Below are positions 9,576 through 40,890 of a stretch of DNA of 64,000 bases, piece by piece. Numbering within the stretch: the stretch's first letter is position 1; each line of letters begins with the position of its first letter. Made by a program: the position numbers and the translations under genes. Origin of the DNA: Daphnia pulex (Eukaryota > Arthropoda > Branchiopoda > Diplostraca > Daphniidae); assembly GCF_021134715.1 (NCBI RefSeq), contig NC_060017.1:5208001-5272000 (forward strand), read 5' to 3'. The notes beneath the pieces are model-generated. The model searched no databases, had not been told where the DNA came from, and was given only the letters and a program-made list of their open reading frames with translations.

Positions 9576-12476
9576 ATTTTTTTTGCGCGCGCGGAACTCG
9601 ATGGAGATTTCAAACTTCTTCGCCGGTATATGTCGTCTTCTTTGGGCTTAAAGGATTAGTATTAGTTTCCTTTATAGACCCGGAAACTTGAAAATAATCC
9701 AAACTGAAGACCTATTGTCAGTATTGTGTGGCATTTTTTGAATCAACAATGGGAGAGTGCGCGCCAGTTTGATGCAGCACGAGAGGTTCGTGAACTGAAA
9801 AGGTTCTCGAGTTTTTGAATATTGACTCTTCGACAAACTGTGTAGATAACAACTTAAGGATGCAGTTGCAGCCGAGAAAGAGAGTCGAAACAGAAAGGGG
9901 AAATCGTGAGCCACAGAGTCCGAATCACAATAAACCGGAGCACACGACGCTCCGGTTCTTATTTATATTTGCCGCCTTTTATGATTTTGAAAAAAACTTG
10001 AAAAATAAAAAAACGGAGAATGAGAAGGAAAGAAGGTCTTGTTTGTACTTGGAAGCGCGAGCGGACGGCTCTCTCGTAATCGAACCAAGACGCCTCTTTT
10101 CAAATCACTATGCACAATTCCATATACAGACTTCCGGTGCGTGATATCGCCGAGAGAGCAAACAAAGTGCAAAACACTCACGCGAAACCCGCATTTCTTT
10201 GAATACAGTTAAATGCGAATATTCCAAATGATTCAAAACCTGCCCAAGTTATCATTGTCACACTCGATTACTGTACCTGACGGGTCTATTTTCGTATGCA
10301 CAACACTTGTCCTATTTTGCTACGTCTGCAGAAGTTGTCTAAAGTTCAGCCGGAACGCCTAATTCAATTTCAATCCCATTCAAATGGGTTCTATATTTTT
10401 ATGTGTACGCTGAACAAGGTGCACGTTGTTTGGTTCATTGTTCGAGTTTTACAATAGTCGGATGTGGCGATTGGCAGAGAAGCTATTGATCGCCACCAAG
10501 AAAAAAAGAAAAGCCTTGATATTACTCACGAACTCGGTACTTTTTTTTTCTTTCCTCCCTTCTCCAGAATCAAAAAAAGAAAAAAGGGAAAAGAGTGGCT
10601 AGACTATCCGTCCTTGCCGGTTTCCTATACACGCGCTAGTGCGCCATCGCTTTAACTTTTAAAGGCATCGGCAATGTTCCCCATTGGCTCATATTTATTC
10701 GACTCGTTCTCAGTTTTCCTTTTTCTTTGATCGCGTCGCTGTCTTTTCTTTTTCTCTCCTTTGGGAAAGTAGTGCGTAGGTGAGTACTACCTGGTGGTGG
10801 TCATTAAAACGCCCCTTTCTTTTCAGTGTAGTAGATTCCAACTGCTTTAACACAGTGCAGAGCATTGGACGTATTTTCTTATCAGCTTTTTATTTTTTTC
10901 GTGGGTATACACGTTATATTTTAACAATAAGGCATACACACCTACGCTGGTGTTGGCTGCATCTGTTGGTGGTGCCGTGAATCGTGCTGTGTGCTAGCCG
11001 GTCCTTTGTTATTGGTCGCGGGTGAAGGAAGACTCTAATATACCCAGAGAGTCTATACTCTACTGCTACTGGCTGCCTTCTTTTATTTTTCTTTTCTTTT
11101 CGTCGTTTCCAACCAGACGTCGACCTTCTTGGCTATAGGTACGTACCCACTGAATGCACTGAATTTCTTACTTTTTGATGGTAGCTCTGTGTAGTTGTAA
11201 GCCAGTCCACTAGGTAATTGTGTATTTGTGTATACCTATGCGGTTACCCAGCGAGTCCTTCCGGTATAACGAAAACTGAAAAGGAAAACACGAAGAGAAA
11301 AAAAAAAGAGTTTTACCTTCAAATGAGTTCTCAATCAACTTGAAGGAACGGGCTGGTAATTTAATTCAACCTTCCCTCTCTTTATTTTTAATCAAGATGA
11401 ATCGACACGACAAATACTTTGAGTTTTGGCTTGGTCTTCATTGACGTCGGAATACCGCACTAATATAGATTGGTGCATTTGAATGATGGAGGCGTCTCCG
11501 TCTTTCATCTGGTCTGATGGATATGATGATGAAGTCGACTCTTGTTCTCCTTCATGGAACCTACGCAGACGGAATGCTGTTTCTCGGTTTCAGGGTACAA
11601 TTAGAGCGATATCCAGTAAATTCGAACTTAAAGCGAACAAGGTGCAATGAAGTCGTTGAGCGAGGTTATAGAGAATGAACAGAGACTTTTTCGATTCCCT
11701 CAAGCTCATTCCGATTGTTGTGTTTTTCTTGATTTCTTTTCTTTTCCTCATCTACTTCCCCCGTTCCCCGTCTCATCTTTGGCTCCTTTCCCTCGGCACC
11801 CACGGGGAGACGCGCGGGAGGATCTCACGTGAGTTGGGAGGAGCTCACCCAAGCGAGAAGATGGAAACGGGCACTAGACGCTGCCGAATCCGCTGGAATA
11901 CCGTCCCTGGAACTCGAAGGGGAAAAGTTTTAGACAAATATAACACAGGGGAAATTCCATTTTCGTTTCTCTGCTCCTTCTTTCCTCTTACGAGATGATA
12001 AAAAAGGGAAATCTACTTGAATTGACCACCTTTTTTTGCGTAGCAAAGCGTTTCCATTGAATGCGGGAAAGTTGTGGCTTTGTCGACTATAGCATGTGAA
12101 ATATTTTTTATTGTAATAGCTGTATATAATTGCTCTTCACAATATTACATCGCCATCTCGCGTTGAGAATAAATATTAAAGAATTAGTTGTGAATTAGTG
12201 ATGTATGCAACTTTAAATGCCTTACAAAATTATTTGAGAGTTGAAACATACGAAAAAAAAATTATTAATCCATAAAATTTATATCATCAAAATAATAATA
12301 ATCATACACCTATTTTTCAGTAGATATTTAAAAAAAACGCAGCTATGTAAGCACAGCAGTAAGAACAATATTTCAAATTGTGCTGTGCGACTTGCGTCGC
12401 TAGATTTCCTTCGAGCCTCTGGGAAGAGAGCCCGAAGGGAGGCTATCAACGAATGCATAAGAAATCCAAAGACATA
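9576..12476. other. Intergenic stretch, no gene seen
   Basis: Lies between the Pax2/5/8 3' end and the left arm of the large inverted repeat. All frames are short and of simple composition. At its right end a small direct repeat (AAAGACATAAGAAATCC-like, about 12447-12503) abuts the palindrome boundary. Confidence 0.6.
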
Positions 12477-12530
12477 AGAACTCCAAAGACATAAGAAATC
12501 CTTTTTTAAATATTATTAAAACAAATACCC

Positions 12531-12703
12531 GACAATAGAACTCCAGTGCCCGACAGTAGAACTCCCCTACGCGACAATAGAGTTCTATACTGTCGTTGGA
12601 GTTCTACTGTCGCATAAAAAGAAATTTTTAAGAATTATGTTAAAAATTTTGGAGTTCTATTGTCGGTGGAGTTCTTCTCCTTGGAGTTCTACTGTCAGCA
12701 ACC
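12531..12703. repeat. Foldback-type element fragment at left palindrome end
   Basis: A cluster of the 15-bp motif GGAGTTCTAYTGTCG in both orientations, separated by short AT-rich stretches. It matches one end and the interior of the complete element at 30662-30927, but the second terminal repeat is missing because the palindrome arm stops at 12477. Compared with the right arm it has an extra 19 or so bases (GTTCTATACTGTCGTTGGA-like). Confidence 0.75.
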
Positions 12704-12881
12704 CTTTTTTGAACACTAGTCCGGTCGAATTTTAGCTGCGTGACGATAAAGAAAGTCTAAAACCTAAATCCCAAACAAGTTATCTTTTAACCTGTCTATT
12801 GGTTTGTGATTCTTTTTTTTTTTTGTATAAAGAGTAAACATTAAAAGAAAAATACAGTCTTCCGGAACCGGAGCATTAATA

Positions 12882-13015
12882 AAGATAAGAAGGTGTGCTG
12901 AAGTGTTTTGTTAATCATAGAGATTCTATAGACTTGTCAGTCCATCTCAGGTCTTGAACGGGTTTTTTCTTTATTCAAGATTCTAACACAATTTTATTTT
13001 TAAATTAGTCGTTAA
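12882..13015 (+). repeat. Diverged direct repeat, copy A (left arm)
   Basis: Shares AAGAAGGTGTGCTG, then TTAATCATAGA, TTGTCAGG/TCC, CTTTATTC and TAACACAA in the same order with 16205-16340. This is clear but diverged similarity over roughly 130 bp. The mirror copy in the right arm is near 30300-30440. Origin unknown. Confidence 0.55.
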
Positions 13016-13139
13016 GCCCAGCCGGTTATAATGCTGAACAGTGAACATTTTAAATTCACACTTCCCAGTCTAACTTTTGCCGCTTTGGCTGATTGGCTCT
13101 TAGCAGGGATGCGGACGTTTTAATTGCAAAACCGAAAAT

Positions 13140-14890
13140 GGCAATGTTGCGCTTTGCGCGTTACTTTCAAGATGGCTGCTGACAGTCTGACAGCCTCGGC
13201 GGCCTCGGCGACCTAAGTCAACTCAACTTATTTTCCCTGACATTACTCGTCATAAAAATGGTGACTACTACTTGTATTCTTTAAGGCTATTAAATGTAAT
13301 TATTTTGTGTTGGTGCATTTACACATAACATAGCCTAAAATTTATACTTGGCAAATCCATCTGATAATGTGGCCTGAAACAGCTGTATATTTTCCCAAAA
13401 TGTCTCTTGCTGCAAGCCCCGGCTGTGCGTTTCGTCTCATGTAGAAATACTCCACAACAGTAAAAGTTATCATGTTAGTCTAACCCTAAAGTTACACATT
13501 TATTTATTTGATGACCTTGTTTCTGATAATAATCAAGTTTTTATTTTTCAATTAACAGTGTGGTGAAGTCTGAGCTTCTTCATTGCAGTCCAATGCGCTG
13601 TGCTGTGCAATTTGTTGCAGCCAGCTGGCGAAAGGGGTTCTTCTTGCAGGCTTGCTACCTGTAGCGTTTGTAGCTTTGTCAGATTCAGAAACACTTCCGA
13701 ACAATTTAAAGTAATTGAGTTGATCAACTTTTTTACAGTAAGGCTACACATTTAATTTGTTGATGACTAGCTCTTTGCTTTTTATCTGTTGACTTTTCAG
13801 TTAAGACTGTTTTAAAAGCTTGCCAACTGTTGATTCTTTTTTAAAGTTTGTAAAAATAATTCTTAGAGATTGCTTAGTTTAACTATGCTTCTGTTATTTT
13901 CTTATGTTACACACCACTTTGTTTTCTGATAGAAATTGAGTTTTTTTTCTTTCCCCAGAGTAGGATTAGCAGCCTCTTGAGGTCTGAGTTGCAGTCCAAT
14001 GTGTACATGAATTTTGTGCAGCCAGCTAGTAAACAGTGTGGTGAGCTGTTGCATGCAGACTGCGGTGTTGGTGTCGTTCGTTCATTTAACTTTGGACCGT
14101 TCAGTCGTTCGTTTATCGTAAGAAATCTGTCACTTGTCGTAGGTGTGTAAAATTGTGTCCACCAGGTGTCAAAGTAGGTTAGCATTTAGTTCTTGATGTC
14201 GAAGAAAAGTGACATCTTAGTTTGTGCTTCTAAATAAGTGCTTTTGTGGAAAGTACGTACTTGTAAAGAATTGTAAACTTTTGTTGATGAAACATGACAG
14301 AAATTCCCTTGCTTTTTAAAAAGGTGAAATGAAATCTTGATGATCTTTGATAATCTTCTTGATTTCTTTTTTCTCTAGTCTAGTGTACATTTCAAGTAAA
14401 TCATTTTTGGTATCTATTTTACATTTCAAATTTGTATTGTTCTTTTGCTTTGTAGATCACCGTGGTCAGTTTTATTGTTGAGCTGTTTATGGTGTTGCTG
14501 TTTGGGGTACAGTGGTTTTGCAGTCATTTTCCAGTTGAGAGATGCGCTGAAATGGAGCTTGTGCAGACTTGCAGTTGAACACCATACTTTAATGTGTCAT
14601 TTTCCTATGTTGGTGTCCATGCAGTGGTGATCTGTTGTGGAAAATAGTCGATGTTGCCTGATGGCTGTTGGGCTTATTTTATCGGCAGCATTTTGTCGAT
14701 CTGTCGTCGCTTGCCACCTGTACCGCCATTGAGGTAATGCTTGATGTACAGTCTCATTTAATTATTGACTTTAAGCTAATATCTCCGTTTTCATTACAGT
14801 TGATTCGTTTGCCGCCGAACTGTTGAAACTAAGAAGACGTTGCTGAAATTCAAGATTGATCAATTAATAATGTTTATAAATTAAAAGTGC
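13140..14890 (+). ncRNA. Possible spliced noncoding transcript (left arm copy)
   Basis: Several blocks look like exons on the + strand. About 13559-13709 follows TTCAATTAACAG and ends before GTAATT. About 13961-14142 follows CTTTCCCCAG and ends before GTGTGT. About 14456-14732 follows TTTGCTTTGTAG and ends before GTAATG. About 14801-14890 follows TTTCATTACAG. The second and third share a diverged core (GCAGTCCAATG then GCAGCCAGCT), as if one exon was duplicated. No long ORF joins them. A 14-codon ORF beginning MAADSL in a good start context lies at 13172-13216. This is splice-signal reading only, with no family match. Confidence 0.25.
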
Positions 14891-15209
14891 ATATCTGGGC
14901 TCCCTTCTTCAGTGGCCCCGTTTCCCTAAATAACCACTTACCAACGCCCGCCGGTGGTCACTCACTCGCTGCGACTACCAGGAGGAAGGGAGATGTTTGA
15001 TCGAACGGGGACTTGCAAGGCGCTTGATTCGATGAAATCTGTTGGAGGGTCATGAGTCTAAGCCGGAAGCCTACTAATATGATGCATTGATTTCATAATA
15101 ACTGCTCCTCAGCTCTCTTCGCTCTTTTTCCGGTTTCTCTTAACCACGGCCGGGTAATCCTCCCTGGTAGAGTCAGTTGGGCAGTGTCTTCTCCTGCTTG
15201 ACTGGCTGC

Positions 15210-15376
15210 AGTTTGTACCGGACGGTTTGTTTAATAAATAAAACAAGTATAAAAAAACATATAATGTTTTCATTTTATAAATTGTTATTAATTAATTAAA
15301 TATAAATAGGTAACAACTTGATTAGCAAGTATATTTATGTAACGTTGTTTATTAAACAGACCGTCCGATACAAACT
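15210..15376. mobile_element. MITE-like hairpin, 167 bp (left arm)
   Basis: Terminal inverted repeats of about 32 bp. The left one starts AGTTTGTACCGGACGGTTTG; the right one is the reverse complement of AGTTTGTATCGGACGGTCTG and its continuation. The roughly 100-bp interior is very AT-rich with no ORF. No unambiguous target-site duplication was seen, so the superfamily is not called. Confidence 0.6.
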
Positions 15377-16204
15377 CTTAGTTAGTACTATTGCTCAAAA
15401 ACTGATTCTCTTGAATCAGCAGACTCGAGTGTTTATAGCGCCGCCAAGGTAGATATTTCTGAATGGTACCCGTCTTGTCAACTGCTAATGATTCGTGTTC
15501 TTGGTTTGACAGAAGCTGTGTTGTGTGTGTTGATCGTCTCCACCATGCACGCGATAATCAAGACCAGCAACGTCTTGATCAAGAAGAAGAAAAGAACGGA
15601 GAAGCAAAGAACGACGATGTAAATAGCGGGGTGGGTACCGCTAAATTCATTCTTAGTTGAATGTCGAATCGCTAATATCATTGTTGGTTATGGTAGAACA
15701 GTTTTCCATACTGGTACGCTGTATGACGTCGAGCATTGCCAAAATGGAAGTGCTCTTTGAAGAACTGAGCGTCTAAATCTTCTTCAGTCAGATGAAGCTA
15801 ACGGATTCGGAAATCGTCGAAGAAGCAGAGGACATCACAGCTAAAAAAAAAACGTGAGTCAAACTCCTGTGGTTAAGTTCTGCAGCTACTCTCAAAATAT
15901 TTTGTCTTGTTTGCTCGTGTTGATTGTAGACTGCTTTTAAATTATCTATCAGGGAAGCCCTAATAAGAGGTCCAAGAGAAATTTATTCGGGTTAACTGAT
16001 ACCATGCCACGTACTAAATCGTTAATGGTTTTCAGGTAAAAAATAACCATGGGAATATGGGGTCGCAGAAATAGATGTCACTGGTGGAAAATAAGAAGGT
16101 GATATGGTATTTTTCTTTTCTACTGTCTGATTTTTAAAGATTTGGTGAGGAACATCCAATCTGTCGATCGCGGTCGCTAACCAATTGTTAGAAAAACAGC
16201 ACCA

Positions 16205-16340
16205 ATAATGGTAAGAAGGTGTGCTGTGAAGTGGAGTGATAATTTTAATCATAGACATTCAGGTTTCATTTCGTGATTTGTCAGGTCGAACTCGGATGTG
16301 CTTTATTCGAGATTTTAACACAAATTGCATTTTATACATA
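16205..16340 (+). repeat. Diverged direct repeat, copy B (left arm)
   Basis: Second copy of the repeat at 12882-13015, about 3.3 kb away in the same orientation; mirror copy near 27000-27134. The pair could be remnants of a segmental duplication or of element ends. Nothing between them looks like a transposase. Confidence 0.55.
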
Positions 16341-16651
16341 AAAAAATTTATCATAAAGCTACAATGTTACAGCATTACCCGTACTATGGCTCGTCCCGGT
16401 TTGTATTGCTTTGTATAATCTTTAGTTGAACGCTAAATTAATTAGAGGCTAGCTAAGAGAATTTGGCTAGATCTTTACAAGATTAGTGAATGTGATTTTT
16501 TAAAGAAATTGTGCCTGTTGCACATCATCGATATTATTGGCCTTGATTCTTAAAGGTGGCTTGGCTAAACTTTCGACGGTTAAACTCTATTTAATAAAGA
16601 GATAATATAACATTTAGCTAATGATCTTGCATTCTTGACTAAATATTTTCA

Positions 16652-16787
16652 GGCAACTTTTGAAGTTTTTGTGGGCACTGATTTGCAGAGTGCTCGTGAC
16701 CAACAGATAAAATGGCCCAATCCATATTGCAAATTTGCAAGCTGTCTTCCAAAACCATCCAAAACCAAGGAATTTCTATTTGCAAGG
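16652..16787 (+). CDS. Possible orphan coding exon, 45 codons (left arm)
   Basis: Open throughout in one frame, with ATATTTTCAG before it and GTAATT after it. The peptide begins ATFEVFVGTDLQSARDQQIK and ends KTKEFLFAR. I recognise no family. A second candidate exon (15787-15852, acceptor TCTTCTTCAG, donor GTGAGT, peptide MKLTDSEIVEEAEDI) lies upstream, but its phase does not match. The mirror copy is at 26552-26687 on the - strand. It could be chance or a relic of a degraded gene. Confidence 0.25.
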
Positions 16788-16953
16788 TAATTATTTCAAC
16801 CAGCAATGTTTCTTTTAATTACTGTGGTAATAATTCAAGATGATGAAGTCTAATTAGGTAGAAAACCTTTCTGAAAAGTTTAGGAGCCATTGTTAATTTC
16901 AATTGGTGTAAAGTGAGTTTTAAGCCATAATCATTTGGTATTAATTTTTATAT

Positions 16954-17600
16954 TGGTTGTTGTAGACCCATTCCAATCCCCAGCAACGTAAACCTGCAAA
17001 AGGAAAGGCGCATAAAACTTGTCATGCAGTGGTGTAGAGGTTGGGTGAGAACGGGATGTGTTACATAACCATTTGGTATTCATTTTGATATTGGTTGTTG
17101 TAGACCCATCCCCAGCAACAACAACCTGCAAAAGGAAAGGCACGTAAAACTTGTCAAAAAGAGGTTGGGTGAGAACGGGATGTGTTAGATAACCATTTTC
17201 ATTTTGATATTGGTTGTTGTAGACCCATCCCCAGCAACAACAACCTGCAAAAGGAAAGGCACGTAAAACTTGTCAAAAAGAGGTTGGGTGAGAACGGGAT
17301 GTGTTAGATAACCATTTTCATTTTGATATTGGTTGTTGTAGACCCATCCCCAGCAACAACAACCTGCAAAAGGAAAGGCACGTAAAACTTGTCAAAAAGA
17401 GGTTGGGTGAGAACGGGATGTGTTAGATAACCATTTTCATTTTGATATTGGTTGTTGTAGACCCATCCCCAGCAACAACAACCTGCAAAAGGAAAGGCAC
17501 GTAAAACTTGTCAAAAAGAGGTTGGGTGAGAACGGGATGTGTTAGATAACCATTTTCATTTTGATATTGGTTGTTGTAGACCCATCCCTAGAAACTTCAA
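16954..17600 (+). repeat. 119-bp tandem repeat array (left arm)
   Basis: The anchor TAGACCC falls at 16963, 17101, 17220, 17339, 17458 and 17577, giving one 138-bp and four 119-bp spacings. The four central units look identical or nearly so. Each unit contains CCCCAGCAACAACAACCTGC, GGCACGTAAAACTTGTC and GAGAACGGGATGTGTTAGA. The array ends about 150 bp upstream of the TATA box of the tyrosine-rich gene. Confidence 0.95.
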
Positions 17601-17752
17601 CCTGCAAAGGGACATTCGAAGGTCACGGAGATCATTACATAAAACGTGTCATGCAGTGGTGTAGAGGTTGGGTGAGAACGGGACGTGTTTCATCATTTTC
17701 AAGCTGCTACAATAGCCGCAAGGCTTAAGAGGAGGGGGTGATCAAAAAATCG

Positions 17753-17759
17753 TATAAAA
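17753..17759 (+). promoter_or_regulatory. TATA box of tyrosine-rich protein gene (left arm)
   Basis: TATAAAA about 94 bases upstream of the ATG at 17847, at a normal distance for a start site near 17785 and a short 5' UTR. ACGTG occurs twice just upstream (near 17644 and 17685). Confidence 0.6.
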
Positions 17760-17846
17760 CGAGAGAGAAAAGGCGAAGGTAAGTCAGTTGAGGGAGCATC
17801 TCCGACACGGCAACAACTGCAGCGCTCTATCTGTCAGTTCGCATCC

Positions 17847-19098
17847 ATGGGTAAATATTCTGCCATTTACATAGAGTTTGGTATCAATCCTTCTTTTTGT
17901 TTATGTATGCCTGTTATTATGTAATATCTAAGTCAAATTTGTAATTGCCTAGCAAACTATGGCGTAGTGCTGCTGTTGTGTGTTGAATCATTGATGGCTG
18001 TGTCGACCACTGGTGTACCGATGTCTTCTTGGTATGGCGAATACCAAACCGCAACTCCGCCGCCATACTACCCAAAAGCAACTTACGCAACGGCCAGTTA
18101 CTGCACCGAGGTCTTCAAGTACTACACCACTAAAGCACCGGACTTTAATAGCACAACTTACGCTGCCCCGAGCCACTACACTGACGCCCTGAAGTATTAC
18201 TCTGCCCGGAGTTACTACACCACCAAGGCGACGGAGGATGACTACGCATGCTGCCCTATCCTACTACACCGAGGCTCCTAAGTATTACTCTGTTCTCATC
18301 TATTTATTGCACCGATTTTCCTAAATACTACTCTGTTCCCAGCTGCTACACCGAGGCTCCAGCTGCTACACCGAGGCTCCAGCTGCTACACCGAGGCTCC
18401 AGCTGCTACACCGAGGCTCCAGCTGCTACACCGAGGCTCCAGCTGCTACACCGAGGCTCCAGCTGCTACACCGAGGCTCCAGCTGCTACACCGAGGCTCC
18501 AGCTGCTACACCGAGGCTCCAGCTGCTACACCGAGGCTCCAGCTGCTACACCGAGGCTCCAGCTGCTACACCGAGGCTCCAGCTGCTACACCGAGGCTCC
18601 AGCTGCTACACCGAGGCTCCAGCTGCTACACCGAGGCTCCAGCTGCTACACCGAGGCTCCAGCTGCTTACTACACCGAGGCTCCAGCTGCTTACTACACC
18701 GAAGCGGCAAAGTACTACTCTGCCCCGATCTACACAACCATATCTGTGGCGTCCAAGTATTACGCTCTCCCGACTTACTGCACAGCAGCTGCTCTTTCGT
18801 ACTACGTTGAACAGAAATACTACACTGATGCTCCAGTTCACTACACCACGACTTACGCTACACCGCAGCCCCCAAGTACTACACCAAAGAAGGCGCCTTC
18901 AACAACGTATGCTGACTAGTTTATTACACCGAGGCTCCCAAGTACTTCATCACTAAGGCACCGGAATTCTACACGTCTATGTATGCTGCCCCTGCCTACT
19001 ACACCGAGGCCCCGCATTACTTCAACACTGAAACGCCCAAGTACTACACTACAACCTGTGCTTCCCACACCTACGTACCGAAATATTATTGTGCGTAA
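17847..19098 (+). pseudogene. Tyrosine-rich secreted repeat protein, broken copy 1 (left arm)
   Basis: Exon 1 is just ATGG (17847-17850). The intron is 17851-17952 (GTAAAT...CCTAG) and exon 2 starts at 17953. The protein begins MANYGVVLLLCVESLMAVST, a good signal peptide, then Tyr-rich repeats of the YYTTKAP, YAAPSHYTDALKYYSA type. This suggests an extracellular structural or cuticle-associated protein; the function is inferred. The frame breaks near 18240-18250 and stops at 18279-18281 (about 110 residues). Repeat-type sequence continues in other frames through a 20-bp minisatellite to a plausible original stop, TAA at 19096-19098, with several more frame changes. A short product could still be made. 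Confidence 0.7.
18341..18684 (+). repeat. 20-bp minisatellite, 16 copies plus one 24-bp unit (left arm)
   Basis: Sixteen perfect copies of AGCTGCTACACCGAGGCTCC (18341-18660) followed by a 24-bp variant with TTAC inserted. The unit encodes CYTEAPA-type sequence in one frame. Because 20 is not a multiple of 3, the array cycles through all three frames with no stop. Confidence 0.97.
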
Positions 19099-19187
19099 AA
19101 GGAGTCTTCCACAAAAAAAGAAGTGCCCGAACTGCAGTGCCCTATCTGTCACCAACCGATTCCTCATCGTGTAACCGATTCGCAATT

Positions 19188-19965
19188 ATGGGTAAATATT
19201 CTTATTTTTACATAGAGTTTTGTATCAATTATATTTTTTTCTATTTGTTAATATGCCTTTTAATATTTAATATTAATGTTTCAATTTATTTACTGTCTAG
19301 TGAACTATGGTGTCGTGCTCCTGTTGGGTGTTGTATCGTTGATGGCTGGGTCGACTGCTGGTGCAGCGATGTCTCCTTGGTATGGCGGAAACCAAACCGC
19401 AACGCCGCCGCTTTCCAACACAACTTACGCAACGACTAGTTCCTGCACTGATGTCTTCCAGTACTACACCACCAAAGCACCGGAGTTTTATACCACAACT
19501 TACGCTGCCCCGAGCCACTACACTGATGCCCTGAAGTATTACTCTGCCCTGAGTTACTACACCATCTAGGCGACGGAGTACTACACGTATACTGCCTATC
19601 CTACTACACCGAGGCTTCTAAGTATTACTCTGTTCTCAGCTACTTATTGCACCGATTTTCCTAAATACTACTCTGTTCCCAGCTGTTACACCGAGGCTCC
19701 CGCTGATTTCTCCACCAAGACGGTCGAATACTACACCGAAGCGGCGAAGTACTTCTCTGCCCCGATCCACAACCGAGGCGGCCAAGTATTACGCAGTCCC
19801 GACTTGCTACTCGAAAGCTGTCTTTCGTGCTACGTTGAACAGAAATACTACACTGATGCTCCAATCTACTACACCACGACCTACGCTACACCTAGCTACA
19901 ACACCGCAGCCCACAAGTACTACACCGAAGAAGCCGCCTATTACACAACTACGTACGCTGCCTAG
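19188..19965 (+). pseudogene. Tyrosine-rich secreted repeat protein, broken copy 2 (left arm)
   Basis: Tandem paralogue of copy 1, starting about 90 bp after it. Exon 1 is ATGG (19188-19191), the intron ends with GTCTAG at 19300, and exon 2 starts at 19301. The protein begins MVNYGVVLLLGVVSLMAGST (signal peptide) and continues with YYTTKAPEFYTT-type repeats. A TAG at 19567-19569 replaces the lysine codon expected after YYTT and ends a 90-residue product. Matching repeat sequence continues with frame changes to TAG at 19963-19965. No TATA box lies in the short gap, so its own promoter is doubtful. Confidence 0.7.
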
Positions 19966-21519
19966 TTTAGTACATCGACGAAATTAAGTATTGCCCTGCT
20001 CGAAACTTCTACCAAACTTAGGTTCATATTTATTGCAATTTTCACGACTAAACTATGTCACCTGAAGTATTTCTCTGTATGTGTTGAAAGATTGTTGGAA
20101 TACAAGATTGATTGATAAATCACGATGTCATGTCTATTTTCTCTAAGTACCTTTCCTCCTGCTGATTATGCATGATGTGAGAAAATATTTTTGAATGCTA
20201 TGTAAACTTAAAAATTGATCTTGCAAAATACAACAATAAAAATTCAAACTCCTGTTTTACATTTCAATAATATTTTAACTCTTTTCTTTCTATAAATTTT
20301 TTTCTATCATTAAATTTCAAAGTCCAACAACCAATAATTTTCTGAAAAATTCAAAGTCCACCACACCTATTTTTCTGCTAAGTCCAGACTTTTGTTTTTG
20401 AAAAAAAATTTAAAAAAATTCCCCTTACACGAGATTTTAAAAAATTTATCGCGAAAAAGATTGATACGAATATTTTATTGCATACCAAATTTATTTTTAT
20501 AACATTTTACATACATCATATTCATTTTTCCTGTGGCCCCCAAGGGGGGGGGGGCCTGTCGCTTTCTCTACCGCGATAATAACATGATGCAAGTTATATG
20601 CAAGTTATTATTTGTTTGGTGCAGAAAGCTTGTTTTATCTAGCAGTTATCGACTGTTTCAAACCTGACATTGATCAGGTTGCCTCAGTCGTATACTGCAT
20701 GATTGAATGAAAACTCAAGACAACAGATCAAAATTTTAAAGCAGCATCACAAAATATCACTGGCAGAGCAATTTCATATGGCATGGATGAAAACGACAAC
20801 ACAAAATTTTTGAAGTCAGGAACCCAGATGGAACAGCTCAGCTACAACAGCACAGCAACTTCTGGATTACACTGCAACTGCATGGTACTTCAATGGTTCA
20901 ATCCGTCTTGGTCACACCTTTCACCATTTGGCTGCATTCCGCTGCAACAAGGTAACCACCAGCATTAGAAGTTTTTTATACCTGTTTAAGAAAAGAAAAT
21001 TATTGTCGAGAAACACAACTTTGTACACACACATACTCTTTATAACAAAAGAATACAAAGAGTAACAGAAAACTACGCAGACCAACAGAATAACTTAGAT
21101 GTCTGATTCAAATTTTCTATAGCAGCAGAGCAAATCATTCTACTCTCTAGTCATGTTAACTAAATCTGTAGTACTCTTGTAAGACATTTGATCACAATAA
21201 TTACTTTTTGCTGTTGCATGGGATAAGACGTACGCCTAAGAACAGGCAGCGAGATACACGAGGCACGCCATTTCGGAAATGTACAGGCACTTCCCAAGTC
21301 TGAGTTGAATGATTTGGCAAATTGGTTTCTACGTGCTAAATCACCTGTAAATTTTCACATCAACATTTTACATTCAATAACAATAGGAAATTTAACAATA
21401 AATACCTTTTAATTTTCATCGTGAGGGAGACGTGACAACCAACAACCCACTTCTGCTGCGTCTGGGAACAAAATGGCCGCTAAGCATTCCTGAAGACACT
21501 CGCGCTACCTGGTGGACAT

Positions 21520-21702
21520 CATTCAGCCACCTATTGACAGCCATTAGACTCCTGTTCCAGAGTGCCCGACAGTAGAACTCCACTACGCGACAATAATAAT
21601 TAGGCACGCAAATAATTAAGAATTAAGAATAACAATTATTGGAGTTCTATTGTATTGTATTGTTGTCATTTGTAACAGGAACAAGTGGCTGTATCTGTAT
21701 GA
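21520..21702. other. Central spacer of the palindrome
   Basis: A 183-bp loop between the two arms, where exact mirror identity stops. It contains GTGCCCGACAGTAGAACTCC with ACTACGCGACAATA (21562-21595), almost identical to the left outer end (12547-12580), and an oppositely oriented GGAGTTCTATTGT at 21641-21653. Weak, gapped mirror similarity continues for a few dozen bases inside each edge. Confidence 0.9.
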
Positions 21703-23256
21703 ATGTCCACCAGGTAGCGCGAGTGTCTTCAGGAATGCTTAGCGGCCATTTTGTTCCCAGACGCAGCAGAAGTGGGTTGTTGGTTGTCACGTCTCCCTCA
21801 CGATGAAAATTAAAAGGTATTTATTGTTAAATTTCCTATTGTTATTGAATGTAAAATGTTGATGTGAAAATTTACAGGTGATTTAGCACGTAGAAACCAA
21901 TTTGCCAAATCATTCAACTCAGACTTGGGAAGTGCCTGTACATTTCCGAAATGGCGTGCCTCGTGTATCTCGCTGCCTGTTCTTAGGCGTACGTCTTATC
22001 CCATGCAACAGCAAAAAGTAATTATTGTGATCAAATGTCTTACAAGAGTACTACAGATTTAGTTAACATGACTAGAGAGTAGAATGATTTGCTCTGCTGC
22101 TATAGAAAATTTGAATCAGACATCTAAGTTATTCTGTTGGTCTGCGTAGTTTTCTGTTACTCTTTGTATTCTTTTGTTATAAAGAGTATGTGTGTGTACA
22201 AAGTTGTGTTTCTCGACAATAATTTTCTTTTCTTAAACAGGTATAAAAAACTTCTAATGCTGGTGGTTACCTTGTTGCAGCGGAATGCAGCCAAATGGTG
22301 AAAGGTGTGACCAAGACGGATTGAACCATTGAAGTACCATGCAGTTGCAGTGTAATCCAGAAGTTGCTGTGCTGTTGTAGCTGAGCTGTTCCATCTGGGT
22401 TCCTGACTTCAAAAATTTTGTGTTGTCGTTTTCATCCATGCCATATGAAATTGCTCTGCCAGTGATATTTTGTGATGCTGCTTTAAAATTTTGATCTGTT
22501 GTCTTGAGTTTTCATTCAATCATGCAGTATACGACTGAGGCAACCTGATCAATGTCAGGTTTGAAACAGTCGATAACTGCTAGATAAAACAAGCTTTCTG
22601 CACCAAACAAATAATAACTTGCATATAACTTGCATCATGTTATTATCGCGGTAGAGAAAGCGACAGGCCCCCCCCCCCTTGGGGGCCACAGGAAAAATGA
22701 ATATGATGTATGTAAAATGTTATAAAAATAAATTTGGTATGCAATAAAATATTCGTATCAATCTTTTTCGCGATAAATTTTTTAAAATCTCGTGTAAGGG
22801 GAATTTTTTTAAATTTTTTTTCAAAAACAAAAGTCTGGACTTAGCAGAAAAATAGGTGTGGTGGACTTTGAATTTTTCAGAAAATTATTGGTTGTTGGAC
22901 TTTGAAATTTAATGATAGAAAAAAATTTATAGAAAGAAAAGAGTTAAAATATTATTGAAATGTAAAACAGGAGTTTGAATTTTTATTGTTGTATTTTGCA
23001 AGATCAATTTTTAAGTTTACATAGCATTCAAAAATATTTTCTCACATCATGCATAATCAGCAGGAGGAAAGGTACTTAGAGAAAATAGACATGACATCGT
23101 GATTTATCAATCAATCTTGTATTCCAACAATCTTTCAACACATACAGAGAAATACTTCAGGTGACATAGTTTAGTCGTGAAAATTGCAATAAATATGAAC
23201 CTAAGTTTGGTAGAAGTTTCGAGCAGGGCAATACTTAATTTCGTCGATGTACTAAA

Positions 23257-24034
23257 CTAGGCAGCGTACGTAGTTGTGTAATAGGCGGCTTCTTCGGTGT
23301 AGTACTTGTGGGCTGCGGTGTTGTAGCTAGGTGTAGCGTAGGTCGTGGTGTAGTAGATTGGAGCATCAGTGTAGTATTTCTGTTCAACGTAGCACGAAAG
23401 ACAGCTTTCGAGTAGCAAGTCGGGACTGCGTAATACTTGGCCGCCTCGGTTGTGGATCGGGGCAGAGAAGTACTTCGCCGCTTCGGTGTAGTATTCGACC
23501 GTCTTGGTGGAGAAATCAGCGGGAGCCTCGGTGTAACAGCTGGGAACAGAGTAGTATTTAGGAAAATCGGTGCAATAAGTAGCTGAGAACAGAGTAATAC
23601 TTAGAAGCCTCGGTGTAGTAGGATAGGCAGTATACGTGTAGTACTCCGTCGCCTAGATGGTGTAGTAACTCAGGGCAGAGTAATACTTCAGGGCATCAGT
23701 GTAGTGGCTCGGGGCAGCGTAAGTTGTGGTATAAAACTCCGGTGCTTTGGTGGTGTAGTACTGGAAGACATCAGTGCAGGAACTAGTCGTTGCGTAAGTT
23801 GTGTTGGAAAGCGGCGGCGTTGCGGTTTGGTTTCCGCCATACCAAGGAGACATCGCTGCACCAGCAGTCGACCCAGCCATCAACGATACAACACCCAACA
23901 GGAGCACGACACCATAGTTCACTAGACAGTAAATAAATTGAAACATTAATATTAAATATTAAAAGGCATATTAACAAATAGAAAAAAATATAATTGATAC
24001 AAAACTCTATGTAAAAATAAGAATATTTACCCAT
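23257..24034 (-). pseudogene. Tyrosine-rich secreted repeat protein, broken copy 2 (right arm)
   Basis: Mirror of 19188-19965, with the same two-exon structure and the same early TAG (complement of 23653-23655). The shared lesion shows that the break came before the arm duplication or was spread between arms by gene conversion. Confidence 0.7.
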
Positions 24035-24123
24035 AATTGCGAATCGGTTACACGATGAGGAATCGGTTGGTGACAGATAGGGCACTGCAGTTCGGGCACT
24101 TCTTTTTTTGTGGAAGACTCCTT

Positions 24124-25611
24124 TTACGCACAATAATATTTCGGTACGTAGGTGTGGGAAGCACAGGTTGTAGTGTAGTACTTGGGCGTTTCAGTGTTGA
24201 AGTAATGCGGGGCCTCGGTGTAGTAGGCAGGGGCAGCATACATAGACGTGTAGAATTCCGGTGCCTTAGTGATGAAGTACTTGGGAGCCTCGGTGTAATA
24301 AACTAGTCAGCATACGTTGTTGAAGGCGCCTTCTTTGGTGTAGTACTTGGGGGCTGCGGTGTAGCGTAAGTCGTGGTGTAGTGAACTGGAGCATCAGTGT
24401 AGTATTTCTGTTCAACGTAGTACGAAAGAGCAGCTGCTGTGCAGTAAGTCGGGAGAGCGTAATACTTGGACGCCACAGATATGGTTGTGTAGATCGGGGC
24501 AGAGTAGTACTTTGCCGCTTCGGTGTAGTAAGCAGCTGGAGCCTCGGTGTAGCAGCTGGAGCCTCGGTGTAGCAGCTGGAGCCTCGGTGTAGCAGCTGGA
24601 GCCTCGGTGTAGCAGCTGGAGCCTCGGTGTAGCAGCTGGAGCCTCGGTGTAGCAGCTGGAGCCTCGGTGTAGCAGCTGGAGCCTCGGTGTAGCAGCTGGA
24701 GCCTCGGTGTAGCAGCTGGAGCCTCGGTGTAGCAGCTGGAGCCTCGGTGTAGCAGCTGGAGCCTCGGTGTAGCAGCTGGAGCCTCGGTGTAGCAGCTGGA
24801 GCCTCGGTGTAGCAGCTGGAGCCTCGGTGTAGCAGCTGGAGCCTCGGTGTAGCAGCTGGAGCCTCGGTGTAGCAGCTGGAGCCTCGGTGTAGCAGCTGGA
24901 GCCTCGGTGTAGCAGCTGGAGCCTCGGTGTAGCAGCTGGAGCCTCGGTGTAGCAGCTGGAGCCTCGGTGTAGCAGCTGGAGCCTCGGTGTAGCAGCTGGA
25001 GCCTCGGTGTAGCAGCTGGAGCCTCGGTGTAGCAGCTGGAGCCTCGGTGTAGCAGCTGGAGCCTCGGTGTAGCAGCTGGAGCCTCGGTGTAGCAGCTGGA
25101 GCCTCGGTGTAGCAGCTGGGAACAGAGTAGTATTTAGGAAAATCGGTGCAATAAATAGATGAGAACAGAGTAATACTTAGGAGCCTCGGTGTAGTAGGAT
25201 AGGGCAGCATGCGTAGTCATCCTCCGTCGCCTTGGTGGTGTAGTAACTCCGGGCAGAGTAATACTTCAGGGCGTCAGTGTAGTGGCTCGGGGCAGCGTAA
25301 GTTGTGCTATTAAAGTCCGGTGCTTTAGTGGTGTAGTACTTGAAGACCTCGGTGCAGTAACTGGCCGTTGCGTAAGTTGCTTTTGGGTAGTATGGCGGCG
25401 GAGTTGCGGTTTGGTATTCGCCATACCAAGAAGACATCGGTACACCAGTGGTCGACACAGCCATCAATGATTCAACACACAACAGCAGCACTACGCCATA
25501 GTTTGCTAGGCAATTACAAATTTGACTTAGATATTACATAATAACAGGCATACATAAACAAAAAGAAGGATTGATACCAAACTCTATGTAAATGACAGAA
25601 TATTTACCCAT
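24124..25611 (-). pseudogene. Tyrosine-rich secreted repeat protein, broken copy 1 (right arm)
   Basis: Mirror of 17847-19098: ATG at 25609-25611, exon 2 from 25505 down, and the same frame break and early stop at 25177-25179. The minisatellite is longer (29 copies). Downstream of the array the frame differs from the left arm, because the array length modulo 3 is different. Confidence 0.7.
24541..25120 (-). repeat. 20-bp minisatellite, 29 copies (right arm)
   Basis: Twenty-nine perfect tandem copies of the complement of AGCTGCTACACCGAGGCTCC, against 16 in the left arm, and without the 24-bp variant unit. The net difference is 13 x 20 - 24 = 236 bp, exactly the shift in matching-position sums (43458 - 43222). 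Confidence 0.97.
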
Positions 25612-25698
25612 GGATGCGAACTGACAGATAGAGCGCTGCAGTTGTTGCCGTGTCGGAGATGCTCCCTCGACTGACTTACCTTCGCCTTTTCTCTCTCG

Positions 25699-25705
25699 TT
25701 TTATA
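25699..25705 (-). promoter_or_regulatory. TATA box of tyrosine-rich protein gene (right arm)
   Basis: Mirror of the left-arm TATA box: TTTTATA on the + strand, read as TATAAAA on the - strand, 88-94 bases upstream of the ATG at 25611. Confidence 0.6.
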
Positions 25706-25857
25706 CGATTTTTTGATCACCCCCTCCTCTTAAGCCTTGCGGCTATTGTAGCAGCTTGAAAATGATGAAACACGTCCCGTTCTCACCCAACCTCTACACC
25801 ACTGCATGACACGTTTTATGTAATGATCTCCGTGACCTTCGAATGTCCCTTTGCAGG

Positions 25858-26385
25858 TTGAAGTTTCTAGGGATGGGTCTACAACAACCAATATCAAAAT
25901 GAAAATGGTTATCTAACACATCCCGTTCTCACCCAACCTCTTTTTGACAAGTTTTACGTGCCTTTCCTTTTGCAGGTTGTTGTTGCTGGGGATGGGTCTA
26001 CAACAACCAATATCAAAATGAAAATGGTTATCTAACACATCCCGTTCTCACCCAACCTCTTTTTGACAAGTTTTACGTGCCTTTCCTTTTGCAGGTTGTT
26101 GTTGCTGGGGATGGGTCTACAACAACCAATATCAAAATGAAAATGGTTATCTAACACATCCCGTTCTCACCCAACCTCTTTTTGACAAGTTTTACGTGCC
26201 TTTCCTTTTGCAGGTTGTTGTTGCTGGGGATGGGTCTACAACAACCAATATCAAAATGAATACCAAATGGTTATGTAACACATCCCGTTCTCACCCAACC
26301 TCTACACCACTGCATGACAAGTTTTATGCGCCTTTCCTTTTGCAGGTTTACGTTGCTGGGGATTGGAATGGGTCTACAACAACCA
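25858..26385 (-). repeat. 119-bp tandem repeat array (right arm)
   Basis: Mirror of the left array with one unit fewer. The anchor GGGTCTA lies at 25875, 25994, 26113, 26232 and 26370, giving three 119-bp and one 138-bp spacings. The one-unit difference explains the shift of the matching-position sum from 43458 to 43339. Confidence 0.95.
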
Positions 26386-27962
26386 ATATAAAAATTAATA
26401 CCAAATGATTATGGCTTAAAACTCACTTTACACCAATTGAAATTAACAATGGCTCCTAAACTTTTCAGAAAGGTTTTCTACCTAATTAGACTTCATCATC
26501 TTGAATTATTACCACAGTAATTAAAAGAAACATTGCTGGTTGAAATAATTACCTTGCAAATAGAAATTCCTTGGTTTTGGATGGTTTTGGAAGACAGCTT
26601 GCAAATTTGCAATATGGATTGGGCCATTTTATCTGTTGGTCACGAGCACTCTGCAAATCAGTGCCCACAAAAACTTCAAAAGTTGCCTGAAAATATTTAG
26701 TCAAGAATGCAAGATCATTAGCTAAATGTTATATTATCTCTTTATTAAATAGAGTTTAACCGTCGAAAGTTTAGCCAAGCCACCTTTAAGAATCAAGGCC
26801 AATAATATCGATGATGTGCAACAGGCACAATTTCTTTAAAAAATCACATTCACTAATCTTGTAAAGATCTAGCCAAATTCTCTTAGCTAGCCTCTAATTA
26901 ATTTAGCGTTCAACTAAAGATTATACAAAGCAATACAAACCGGGACGAGCCATAGTACGGGTAATGCTGTAACATTGTAGCTTTATGATAATTTTTTTTA
27001 TGTATAAAATGCAATTTGTGTTAAAATCTCGAATAAAGCACATCCGAGTTCGACCTGACAAATCACGAAATGAAACCTGAATGTCTATGATTAAAATTAT
27101 CACTCCACTTCACAGCACACCTTCTTACCATTATTGGTGCTGTTTTTCTAACAATTGGTTAGCGACCGCGATCGACAGATTGGATGTTCCTCACCAAATC
27201 TTTAAAAATCAGACAGTAGAAAAGAAAAATACCATATCACCTTCTTATTTTCCACCAGTGACATCTATTTCTGCGACCCCATATTCCCATGGTTATTTTT
27301 TACCTGAAAACCATTAACGATTTAGTACGTGGCATGGTATCAGTTAACCCGAATAAATTTCTCTTGGACCTCTTATTAGGGCTTCCCTGATAGATAATTT
27401 AAAAGCAGTCTACAATCAACACGAGCAAACAAGACAAAATATTTTGAGAGTAGCTGCAGAACTTAACCACAGGAGTTTGACTCACGTTTTTTTTTTAGCT
27501 GTGATGTCCTCTGCTTCTTCGACGATTTCCGAATCCGTTAGCTTCATCTGACTGAAGAAGATTTAGACGCTCAGTTCTTCAAAGAGCACTTCCATTTTGG
27601 CAATGCTCGACGTCATACAGCGTACCAGTATGGAAAACTGTTCTACCATAACCAACAATGATATTAGCGATTCGACATTCAACTAAGAATGAATTTAGCG
27701 GTACCCACCCCGCTATTTACATCGTCGTTCTTTGCTTCTCCGTTCTTTTCTTCTTCTTGATCAAGACGTTGCTGGTCTTGATTATCGCGTGCATGGTGGA
27801 GACGATCAACACACACAACACAGCTTCTGTCAAACCAAGAACACGAATCATTAGCAGTTGACAAGACGGGTACCATTCAGAAATATCTACCTTGGCGGCG
27901 CTATAAACACTCGAGTCTGCTGATTCAAGAGAATCAGTTTTTGAGCAATAGTACTAACTAAG

Positions 27963-28129
27963 AGTTTGTATCGGACGGTCTGTTTAATAAACAACGTTAC
28001 ATAAATATACTTGTTAATCAAGTTGTTACCTATTTATATTTAATTAATTAATAACAATTTATAAAATGAAAACATTATATGTTTTTTTATACTTGTTTTA
28101 TTTATTAAACAAACCGTCCGGTACAAACT
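27963..28129. mobile_element. MITE-like hairpin, 167 bp (right arm)
   Basis: Mirror copy of the hairpin at 15210-15376, at the exactly corresponding position. It was therefore duplicated with the arm rather than inserted independently. Confidence 0.6.
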
Positions 28130-28448
28130 GCAGCCAGTCAAGCAGGAGAAGACACTGCCCAACTGACTCTACCAGGGAGGATTACCCGGCCGTGGTTAAG
28201 AGAAACCGGAAAAAGAGCGAAGAGAGCTGAGGAGCAGTTATTATGAAATCAATGCATCATATTAGTAGGCTTCCGGCTTAGACTCATGACCCTCCAACAG
28301 ATTTCATCGAATCATGCGCCTTGCAAGTCCCCGTTCGATCAAACATCTCCCTTCCTCCTGGTAGTCGCAGCGAGTGAGTGACCACCGGCGGGCGTTGGTT
28401 AGTGGTTATTTAGGGAAACGGGGCCACTGAAGAAGGGAGCCCAGATAT

Positions 28449-30199
28449 GCACTTTTAATTTATAAACATTATTAATTGATCAATCTTGAATTTCAGCAAC
28501 GTCTTCTTAGTTTCAACAGTTCGGCGGCAAACGAATCAACTGTAATGAAAACGGAGATATTAGCTTAAAGTCAATAATTAAATGAGACTGTACATCAAGC
28601 ATTACCTCAATGGCGGTACAGGTGGCAAGCGACGACAGATCGACAAAATGCTGCCGATAAAATAAGCCCAACAGCCATCAGGCAACATCGACTATTTTCC
28701 ACAACAGATCACCACTGCATGGACACATGCATAGGAAAATGACACATTAAAGTATGGTGTTCAACTGCAAGTCTGCACAAGCTCCATTTCAGCGCATCTC
28801 TCAACTGGAAAATGACTGCAAAACCACTGTACCCCAAACAGCAACACCATAAACAGCTCAACAATAAAACTGACCACGGTGATCTACAAAGCAAAAGAAC
28901 AATACAAATTTGAAATGTAAAATAGATACCAAAAATGATTTACTTGAAATGTACACTAGACTAGAGAAAAAAGAAATCAAGAAGATTATCAAAGATCATC
29001 AAGATTTCATTTCACCTTTTTAAAAAGCAAGGGAATTTCTGTCATGTTTCATCAACAAAAGTTTACAATTCTTTACAAGTACGTACTTTCCACAAAAGCA
29101 CTTATTTAGAAGCACAAACTAAGATGTCACTTTTCTTCGACATCAAGAACTAAATGCTAACCTACTTTGACACCTGGTGGACACAATTTTACACACCTAC
29201 GACAAGTGACAGATTTCTTACGATAAACGAACGACTGAACGGTCCAAAGTTAAATGAACGAACGACACCAACACCGCAGTCTGCATGCAACAGCTCACCA
29301 CACTGTTTACTAGCTGGCTGCACAAAATTCATGTACACATTGGACTGCAACTCAGACCTCAAGAGGCTGCTAATCCTACTCTGGGGAAAGAAAAAAAACT
29401 CAATTTCTATCAGAAAACAAAGTGGTGTGTAACATAAGAAAATAACAGAAGCATAGTTAAACTAAGCAATCTCTAAGAATTATTTTTACAAACTTTAAAA
29501 AAGAATCAACAGTTGGCAAGCTTTTAAAACAGTCTTAACTGAAAAGTCAACAGATAAAAAGCAAAGAGCTAGTCATCAACAAATTAAATGTGTAGCCTTA
29601 CTGTAAAAAAGTTGATCAACTCAATTACTTTAAATTGTTCGGAAGTGTTTCTGAATCTGACAAAGCTACAAACGCTACAGGTAGCAAGCCTGCAAGAAGA
29701 ACCCCTTTCGCCAGCTGGCTGCAACAAATTGCACAGCACAGCGCATTGGACTGCAATGAAGAAGCTCAGACTTCACCACACTGTTAATTGAAAAATAAAA
29801 ACTTGATTATTATCAGAAACAAGGTCATCAAATAAATAAATGTGTAACTTTAGGGTTAGACTAACATGATAACTTTTACTGTTGTGGAGTATTTCTACAT
29901 GAGACGAAACGCACAGCCGGGGCTTGCAGCAAGAGACATTTTGGGAAAATATACAGCTGTTTCAGGCCACATTATCAGATGGATTTGCCAAGTATAAATT
30001 TTAGGCTATGTTATGTGTAAATGCACCAACACAAAATAATTACATTTAATAGCCTTAAAGAATACAAGTAGTAGTCACCATTTTTATGACGAGTAATGTC
30101 AGGGAAAATAAGTTGAGTTGACTTAGGTCGCCGAGGCCGCCGAGGCTGTCAGACTGTCAGCAGCCATCTTGAAAGTAACGCGCAAAGCGCAACATTGCC
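28449..30199 (-). ncRNA. Possible spliced noncoding transcript (right arm copy)
   Basis: Mirror copy of the exon-like blocks described for 13140-14890, with the same splice-like signals on the - strand and only a few base differences. If the left copy is transcribed, this one probably can be too. Confidence 0.25.
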
Positions 30200-30661
30200 A
30201 TTTTCGGTTTTGCAATTAAAACGTCCGCATCCCTGCTAAGAGCCAATCAGCCAAAGCGGCAAAAGTTAGACTGGGAAGTGTGAATTTAAAATGTTCACTG
30301 TTCAGCATTATAACCGGCTGGGCTTAACGACTAATTTAAAAATAAAATTGTGTTAGAATCTTGAATAAAGAAAAAACCCGTTCAAGACCTGAGATGGACT
30401 GACAAGTCTATAGAATCTCTATGATTAACAAAACACTTCAGCACACCTTCTTATCTTTATTAATGCTCCGGTTCCGGAAGACTGTATTTTTCTTTTAATG
30501 TTTACTCTTTATACAAAAAAAAAAAAGAATCACAAACCAATAGACAGGTTAAAAGATAACTTGTTTGGGATTTAGGTTTTAGACTTTCTTTATCGTCACG
30601 CAGCTAAAATTCGACCGGACTAGTGTTCAAAAAAGGGTTGCTGACAGTAGAACTCCAAGGA

Positions 30662-30927
30662 GAAGAACTCCACCGACAATAGAACTCCAAAATTTTTAAC
30701 ATAATTCTTAAAAATTTCTTTTTATGCGACAGTAGAAATCTATTGTCGCGTAGGGGAGTTCTACTGTCGGGCACTGGAGTTCTATTGTCGGGTATTTTTA
30801 ATAATATTTAAAAAAGGATTTCTTATGTCTTTGGAGTTCTACTGTCGTTGGAGTTCTACTGTCGCATACAAAGAAATTTTTAAAAATTATTTTAAACATT
30901 GGGGTTCTATTGTCGGTGGAGTTCTTC
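30662..30927. mobile_element. MITE/foldback-like element spanning right palindrome junction
   Basis: A 266-bp imperfect palindrome. The left terminal repeat (30662-30735) starts GAAGAACTCCACCGACAATA. The right one (30854-30927) is its reverse complement with scattered changes and ends CGGTGGAGTTCTTC. The interior repeats the same GGAGTTCTAYTGTCG core. It encodes no protein. The arm boundary at 30840 falls 14 bases before the right terminal repeat. No clear target-site duplication is visible, so the class is uncertain. Confidence 0.65.
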
Positions 30928-31468
30928 GGTCGCCATACCGTGAACAATCACAATGTATCCAAATAAAGGAACGTGTGGTAGGGAACGTACCGGCGAGTCA
31001 TCAGAGACCAGGTTGCGATCTTTTTGGTATCGACATGCCGTGTAATTAATTTAATTTAAACTTACCTAGGCAACTACTATTTAAGAATGACACTTGAAAC
31101 CTTGGTGATGTCGCCAATTAAATCCAGCAGTCCATGAAAGCCGTTATTAAGAAGTTTCGCTTTCCTTGCCCGCAGCACACAACATTAAATTTTTGAATTC
31201 TAGTGATATTATAGATCTTAAAAAACATTACTGATTTGCATTAAAAATATTACATATACTGGTACCGAAAATATCGGACTGCAGTTAACACTGTACACTG
31301 CACTTAACGCATTCCGTTTTTTAGCTACTTGTATAACTTGAACAGTCTTTGTCGTCTCCGTTTTACTAGATCCTCAAGCTGGATCTTATTTAATTTGATA
31401 GGAAAGCATTCGAGACTCGTAATTTGAGGACGTTTAAAAATGACAAATAATAGTTAACAACAAATTAT
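30928..31468. other. Short intergenic stretch, no gene seen
   Basis: Between the junction element and the METTL13 poly(A) signal. Unlike the sequence to its left it has no mirror copy. No ORF or RNA gene was recognised. Confidence 0.6.
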
Positions 31469-40100: not shown

Positions 40101-40890
40101 TTGGGTGTCTCCAAAATAGCGTTTTATTTTTCTCCATTTTGTTAGTCCCGTTTGAGTTGTTGTCCTTATAGGAGGATGGATGCTTCTGCCCCAAACAGGA
40201 GCATCGTCGAGCACCCTGCGGCCACATCAGCTCACGGTCCAGTCTGTCGGTTTAAAAATAACCGTCGGCCTTCGGTAAAATAAAATGAGAAAAAAAAGGA
40301 AACTTGTACGCAACAGAAAGAACAGAGAGACGCAACGCGGGATATAGTCGAGCATAATGATGGGAAAAGCGGTAATAGAGCGCCGCCACTGTTTCGAAAT
40401 ATATTTTTCTTCTGTTGTGTGCAACAGCTAAATAAACATTTTTTCTTCTCTCTCTCTCCCCTTTTAACTGGCAACCTTTTCAAAAGACAATAAACAAGTG
40501 GAGAGAAGAGTGTAGTATATAGCGTGCTATAGTGCCTTTCAGTTCTATTATATCGTCACTATATAACACAGCCAGCCAGACCAGCAGCAGGCCGTATGGC
40601 ACATCAACTTGCTCGTTTGTTATACGAGTGCATTACTGGGCTTTTAAATTTGCCGCCCGATATGTGGGAAAGAGATTTGGGAGCTCACCATTAAAGACGA
40701 CAACATTATCAATTTGGATGCCATTTATACAAAGCGAATGAAGAGGCCGATTGTCGTAGGTTGTAATGTAGACATTAAATAGAGGAAATAAACTGGGGGC
40801 CTATTGAAAGTTCCAACATATTTTGCGTGGGAAATTCGAATTGTAAATGCAATCCATGACGTGAGCGGATATTTTTTTATTCGATCCGGA
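34137..40890. other. Gene-poor stretch, no gene seen
   Basis: Upstream of the METTL13-type gene, so the first few hundred bases probably include its promoter and 5' UTR; no TATA box stands out. The rest is rich in purine/pyrimidine tracts and short repeats (for example CAG near 37329-37349 and GCC near 37160-37172). Open frames are low-complexity and match nothing I recognise. Confidence 0.55.

Follow-up and report, generated by a model that had tools for sequence, protein, structure and literature searches.

We analysed a window of 64,000 nucleotides (positions 5,208,001-5,272,000 of contig C1) together with the arthropod genome from which it comes (probably Daphnia pulex; 133,188,837 bases in 13 contigs). 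The earlier note had reported an 18.4-kb near-perfect palindrome in this window, and both self-BLAST and a global alignment of the two arms confirmed it at that place and size (Table 1). The arms measure 9,043 and 9,139 bp, and the spacer between them is present as described, with a length of 182 rather than 183 bp. By self-BLAST, positions 18339-24879 match their own reverse complement at 98.6% and positions 25757-30857 match 17558-12460 at 98.5%, gaps being counted in both cases. For the global alignment the arms were trimmed to 12501-21519 and 21702-30820, yielding 11 substitutions among 8,878 aligned bases (99.88% identity) and no difference at all over 18669-21520. Five length differences separate the arms: three, of 119, 120 and 116 bp, fall within two tandem arrays, and two, of 3 and 19 bp, at the outer edge. 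The window thereby shows the near-identical inverted arms and short spacer by which a gene-converting palindrome is recognised. Each arm carries two copies of a Tyr-rich gene, with in-frame stops or frame changes, and downstream of these a block of ~205 bp that is the best conserved part of the arm. The 20-bp tandem array, with 17.5 copies in the left arm and 29.5 in the other (24531-25119), is related to a Tyr-rich coding repeat.

Table 1. Features of the palindrome and its borders, in window coordinates.
Feature	Position	Strand	Basis or remark
Possible left-side remnant of the family outer end	12379..12455	-	Alignment of eight ends, judged by eye, no E-value
Foldback-like passenger repeat (GGAGTTCTAYTGTCG motif), outer edge of left arm	12460..12713	.	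Mirrored at ~30604-30930
Left palindrome arm	12477..21519	+	Self-BLAST, global alignment; homology as far as 12460
119-bp tandem array region	16926..17701	+	Self-BLAST, alignment; arms differ by one unit
Tyr-rich (YYT-repeat) gene copy 1, left arm, broken	17838..18934	+	Holds 20-bp array at 18339-18691; mirrored at ~24266-25620
Tyr-rich gene copy 2, left arm, in-frame stop at 19567-19569	19179..19978	+	Mirrored at 23244-24043
~205-bp conserved block, left arm	20528..20735	+	Contains the core 40-mer (103 genomic copies)
Spacer between the arms	21520..21701	.	Global arm alignment
~205-bp conserved block, right arm	22487..22694	-	40-mer at 22629-22668
Right palindrome arm (left arm reverse-complemented)	21702..30840	-	Self-BLAST, global alignment; homology as far as 30857
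Family sequence outside the right arm	30940..31142	+	Genome matches, end alignment

The palindrome is one member of a dispersed family. A genome search with 501 bp of inner-arm sequence returned 41 matches, two of them the window's own arms and many in plus/minus pairs, and a 4-kb query from the outer arm returned 70, again including both window arms and often paired; the other outer-arm matches are mostly 80-98% identical, with some pieces of up to ~330 bp at 77-79%. Using the Tyr-rich open reading frame P0001 as a query, the 150 matches listed of 157 fell into 70 clusters, of which 28 are convergent and 42 confined to one strand, with no divergent case. Because these searches score the best candidates only, all three counts are minimum values. 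When up to 3 mismatches are allowed, the genome contains 103 copies of a 40-mer taken from where the arm is most conserved (0 for a control), and the 100 copies listed define 76 loci, namely 24 convergent pairs and 52 singles, with 0 divergent and 0 tandem arrangements. The pairs occupy nine chromosomes, to which outer-arm sequence adds a tenth, C8. At least two dozen related palindromic loci are scattered over the chromosomes. A 24-mer occurs at 166 places, and among the 100 listed a partner was found for one single on C11. On C4, all 27 loci are single by the 40-mer among the listed copies (p = 2e-6 against the rest), and three clusters spanning 6.7-14.8 kb are convergent by matches to the open reading frame. 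The 76 listed loci always lie at least 57 kb apart, which was matched by 0 of 20,000 random placements on six chromosomes; the gaps between them could hold more diverged, unlisted copies.

The spacers of 13 two-armed loci fall into related groups. Positions 21501-21721 of the window align over 224 columns, at 93.8% identity, with the spacer region of a palindrome at C5:8300.7 kb (L009), and a part of this window-type spacer is common to L010. Another group, of ~1.2-1.3 kb, comprises L013, L015, L020 and L025 as well as the shorter spacer of L024, and parts of this class are shared by the shorter spacers of L017, L021 (with a long insertion), L022, L027 and L028. Such relatedness between loci, within groups, indicates that the palindromes predate their present divergence; as the window group is linked to the 1.2-kb class by no more than short matches at the edges (up to ~75 bp), all spacers may or may not share a single origin. 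Since the inner boundary and the spacers are shared, we suggest that the palindromes stem from one ancestral palindrome or a few, and that copying would have taken place mostly within chromosomes. A tree of 21 loci shows 5 changes of chromosome label, compared with 10.5 after shuffling (0/2000 shuffles), implying either that copies mostly remain on their own chromosome or that loci on the same chromosome convert each other.

These data bear on the proposal, raised in the earlier note, that the assembly had joined two haplotypes head to head. A join of this kind, or one made through a missed-adapter read, predicts matching flanks, but the only genomic match to the left flank (10400-12470) is the flank itself, and nothing longer than 60 bp matches between left and right flank. 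Convergent pairs occur at 24 loci, the compared spacers are related between loci, and tandem-repeat copy number differs between the arms, all of which argues against an artefact, including one in which polishing copied one arm onto the other. The arm length does equal that of many long reads, and the likeness of the arms is known here from the assembly alone and could have been raised by polishing. Weighing both sides, we find an artefact highly improbable and the haplotype join unsupported: the window palindrome is a real and old member of a dispersed family.

To compare arms within and between loci, we used a 1.3-kb segment of the inner arm from the window and 20 loci at the top of the 501-bp search (34 arms), the sampled loci being the best matches to the window and not a random set. 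In 11 of the 13 two-armed loci the arms are 98.8-100% identical and nearest to each other, the closest other sampled locus being at 94.4-98.3%, so that these arms are more alike than the age of the palindromes predicts. L013 (95.7%) and L020 (93.9%) do not fit this pattern: their arms are not homogenised, and one arm of each is nearest to another locus. These affinities suggest exchange between loci. We aligned longer arms for 11 palindromes, of which ten are 99.3-100% identical by substitutions (C1, 38/6,438; C2, 12/8,294; C3, 10/5,485; L028, 0/2,718). The eleventh, on C8, has arms ~70% alike to those of the window over 0.75 kb; over their outer 2.1 kb the two C8 arms are 98.7% identical to each other by substitutions and 96.7% with gaps.

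Substitutions between arms pile up at arm edges in several palindromes. The window has 5 in 120 bp at the outer edge versus 10 in the rest (p = 1e-6), with 5 substitutions and 2 gaps falling within 12460-12601. At C1:4669k, the outermost 435 bp hold 32 of the 38 (p = 2e-32) and four more are found at the inner edge, while 16 of 17 in L015 fall within 180 bp of the spacer and 6 of 6 in L009 within 75 bp of it. In these four palindromes the edges concerned, outer or inner, are ~4-9% diverged and the interiors near identical. Divergence rising toward the edges is absent from the palindrome at C2:4055k, where 7 of 12 substitutions lie 1.3-2.8 kb from the spacer. We left C3:9731k uncounted as edge evidence (9 of 10 substitutions in the outer ~30 bp), since the alignment may overrun the true arm end.

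Taken as comparisons of sequence, these results make it probable that the window holds an old palindrome of a dispersed family whose arms are kept uniform by arm-to-arm gene conversion. The arms of each locus would overwrite each other by intrachromosomal conversion, and this would weaken toward the ends of the arms, as homology in the flanks gives out. Continuing gene conversion, one of the explanations first put forward, is supported by the likeness of arms within loci, the related spacers and the edge decay. Very recent duplication, offered beside it, is insufficient alone, given that spacers are common to loci whose arms stand several percent apart and that some edges are far more diverged than the interiors. 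A version in which each locus arose by its own recent inverted duplication, the arms being alike through youth, could draw on the single-arm loci (52 of 76 among listed copies) as starting material, and the spacers may have more than one origin; set against the spacers related between loci within groups and the diverged edges of the window, C1, L009 and L015, it seems to us improbable.

At eight loci the 2.0-2.4 kb retrieved beyond the arm contain no second arm, and the listed census contains no second 40-mer within 8 kb of them. In L011, L014, L016 and L019 the spacer is present to within tens of bases of the expected start of a second arm; it is present in part in L012 and L026, as a short piece in L018 and hardly at all in L023. 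The spacer is likewise partial at C4:5279k and rearranged at C4:1442k, the two C4 loci that were fetched. L011 and L016 probably lost an arm, as they are nested among palindromes with the same short spacer; single-arm loci in general may be older or may have lost an arm. L018, L019, L026 and C4:5279k share sequence beyond the spacer, which might have been the flank of an ancestral single-arm unit later replaced by an inverted arm. This argument was dropped, as the shared sequence is a repeat dispersed widely in the genome (40 scored of 654 candidates gave 79 matches, and most of the 40 are away from listed arms) and so carries no information on origin. In L019 this repeat occupies positions 156-888 (0.73 kb) and is 87-100% identical in the 40 best of 654 candidates. 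We also discarded spacer inversion between loci as evidence for recombination of the arms, because orientation is meaningless between symmetrical palindromes at different sites.

Foldback (FB) and other long-inverted-repeat transposons such as Galileo have long inverted arms with internal tandem repeats and are dispersed, and the present family resembles them in each of these respects. We therefore considered a giant foldback-like transposon, with the arms as terminal inverted repeats and the transposase supplied elsewhere. Dispersal on many chromosomes would agree with this, as would the 8 matches that end exactly at 31142 among the 40 listed for the outer sequence; in the C2 palindrome, a relative of 30940-31142 lies immediately next to the outer arm on either side. 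The arms run past the shared outer end by ~1.1 kb in C2 and at least 0.3 kb in C8, on each side, so that the arm ends show no fixed terminus of the kind that a foldback or long terminal-inverted-repeat element has, and a simple transposon with giant inverted repeats fits poorly. No clear target-site duplication was seen in the aligned outer ends of 8 sequences, and no transposase-like open reading frame was found by eye in the window arm (at least 60 aa) or in parts of L021, L013 and L051 (at least 75 aa); among palindrome proteins the Pfam search covered P0001 and one open reading frame of the window palindrome. The placing of the C2 and C8 arm ends sets the family apart from FB and Galileo, as may these two negative results, and its relatives cluster by chromosome on the tree. 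We judge the transposon unlikely; foldback-like transposition could also be how a gene-converting palindrome spreads.

The foldback sequence noticed earlier at the outer ends and centre is indeed there, but it is a small dispersed passenger repeat. Scoring 40 of 221 candidates for this small inverted repeat, marked by the GGAGTTCTAYTGTCG motif, yielded 118 matches; copies of it also lie within the C2:4055k spacer and outside the arms of L018, L023 and C4:5279k, and we call it a passenger because it is dispersed through the genome.

Concerning the cargo, the Tyr-rich genes in the arms look mostly broken. Genome-wide, 29 of the 150 listed matches are free of stops, a count that is a rough guide only because, over its first ~55 residues, P0001 seems to be read in a different frame from the signal-peptide-like one of the window copies. 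P0001 had no match in Pfam or PDB. The apparent decay of these protein genes speaks against the palindromes persisting to rescue them.

The ~205-bp block stands out from its surroundings. Across the arms of 21 loci the share of the majority base is 0.94-0.97 over ~20533-20706 and mostly 0.76-0.93 in the rest of the segment. Within the block, a set of 34 sequences has a mean pairwise identity of 94-97%, compared with 50-68% in the adjoining columns; 20 of the sequences come from C4 and were chosen for holding the 40-mer, which favours the core, and ragged ends and gaps depress the identity outside. At 16 of the 27 C4 loci, the same-strand sequence up to 2 kb upstream includes a listed Tyr-rich match. 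The block folds strongly (z of -4.75 and -6.26). With an alignment-derived structure, which itself favours invariant columns, 6 of 90 paired columns vary against 18 of 65 unpaired ones (p = 5e-4); with a single-sequence structure the difference is gone (13/101 paired versus 11/54 unpaired, p = 0.25). A compensatory change occurs at one pair only, in 2 of 27 distinct sequences, and the same pair is broken in 3 more. A search of Rfam gave nothing at the gathering score and two weak matches within 20100-21500, and the block was not found in viral contigs (exact 32-mer) or plasmids. From its conservation and predicted folding, an RNA gene or RNA-processing element is possible. A bolder and decidedly tentative reading is that the palindromes spread and stay uniform around this block as their functional cargo, perhaps as a structured RNA gene or RNA-processing element in more than 100 copies. 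If so, arm conversion would maintain a multicopy element in a partly asexual animal while neighbouring protein genes decay.

Sex chromosomes supply the best-known cases of palindromes evolving in concert, a process said to protect genes there. Sex determination in Daphnia is mostly environmental. The conversion process is already known, on sex chromosomes, and what is new is a set of dispersed related palindromes on ordinary chromosomes. The likeness to sex-chromosome palindromes drawn in the earlier note holds for the mechanism and fails for the chromosomal setting, with paired 40-mer copies on nine chromosomes plus the C8 palindrome. Primate Y and X gene-converting palindromes (Rozen 2003 as cited in PMC7953838 and PMC5490193; PMC8981503) likewise have arms above 99% identity, short unrelated spacers and concerted arms; unlike them, the present family spans about ten chromosomes and the Tyr-rich genes of its arms look mostly broken. 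Palindromic gene blocks are also described from animals that reproduce asexually always or at times, namely Folsomia candida (PMC5490193) and Adineta vaga (as cited in PMC7953838 and PMC5490193); for the F. candida blocks the Ks range was wide and the authors did not take concerted evolution to be the explanation (PMC5490193). The palindrome literature that we found is mainly sex-chromosome work, including PMC8981503, and among the papers listed none dealt with Daphnia palindromes, with such a Tyr-rich family or with the conserved block. The palindrome screen of PMC7953838 left out D. pulex for lack of annotation; the accessible parts of a paper on D. pulex DNA transposons mention palindromes for Helitrons only (PMC2884549), and those of PMC12102780 hold nothing on the present family. 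Dozens of related palindromes on ordinary chromosomes offer many replicates of one process, with single-arm loci for comparison. Mutation-accumulation lines of Daphnia exist (PMC12926508), so that conversion rates could be measured directly.

Elsewhere in the window, a tRNA scan found none. Directly to the right of the palindrome, an open reading frame on the minus strand (32008-32379) is methyltransferase- or spermidine-synthase-like, and the locus therefore seems to lie in gene-bearing DNA. Further on, self-BLAST revealed a tandem repeat at 40888-41914 with a period of ~0.35 kb and copies 87-89% identical.
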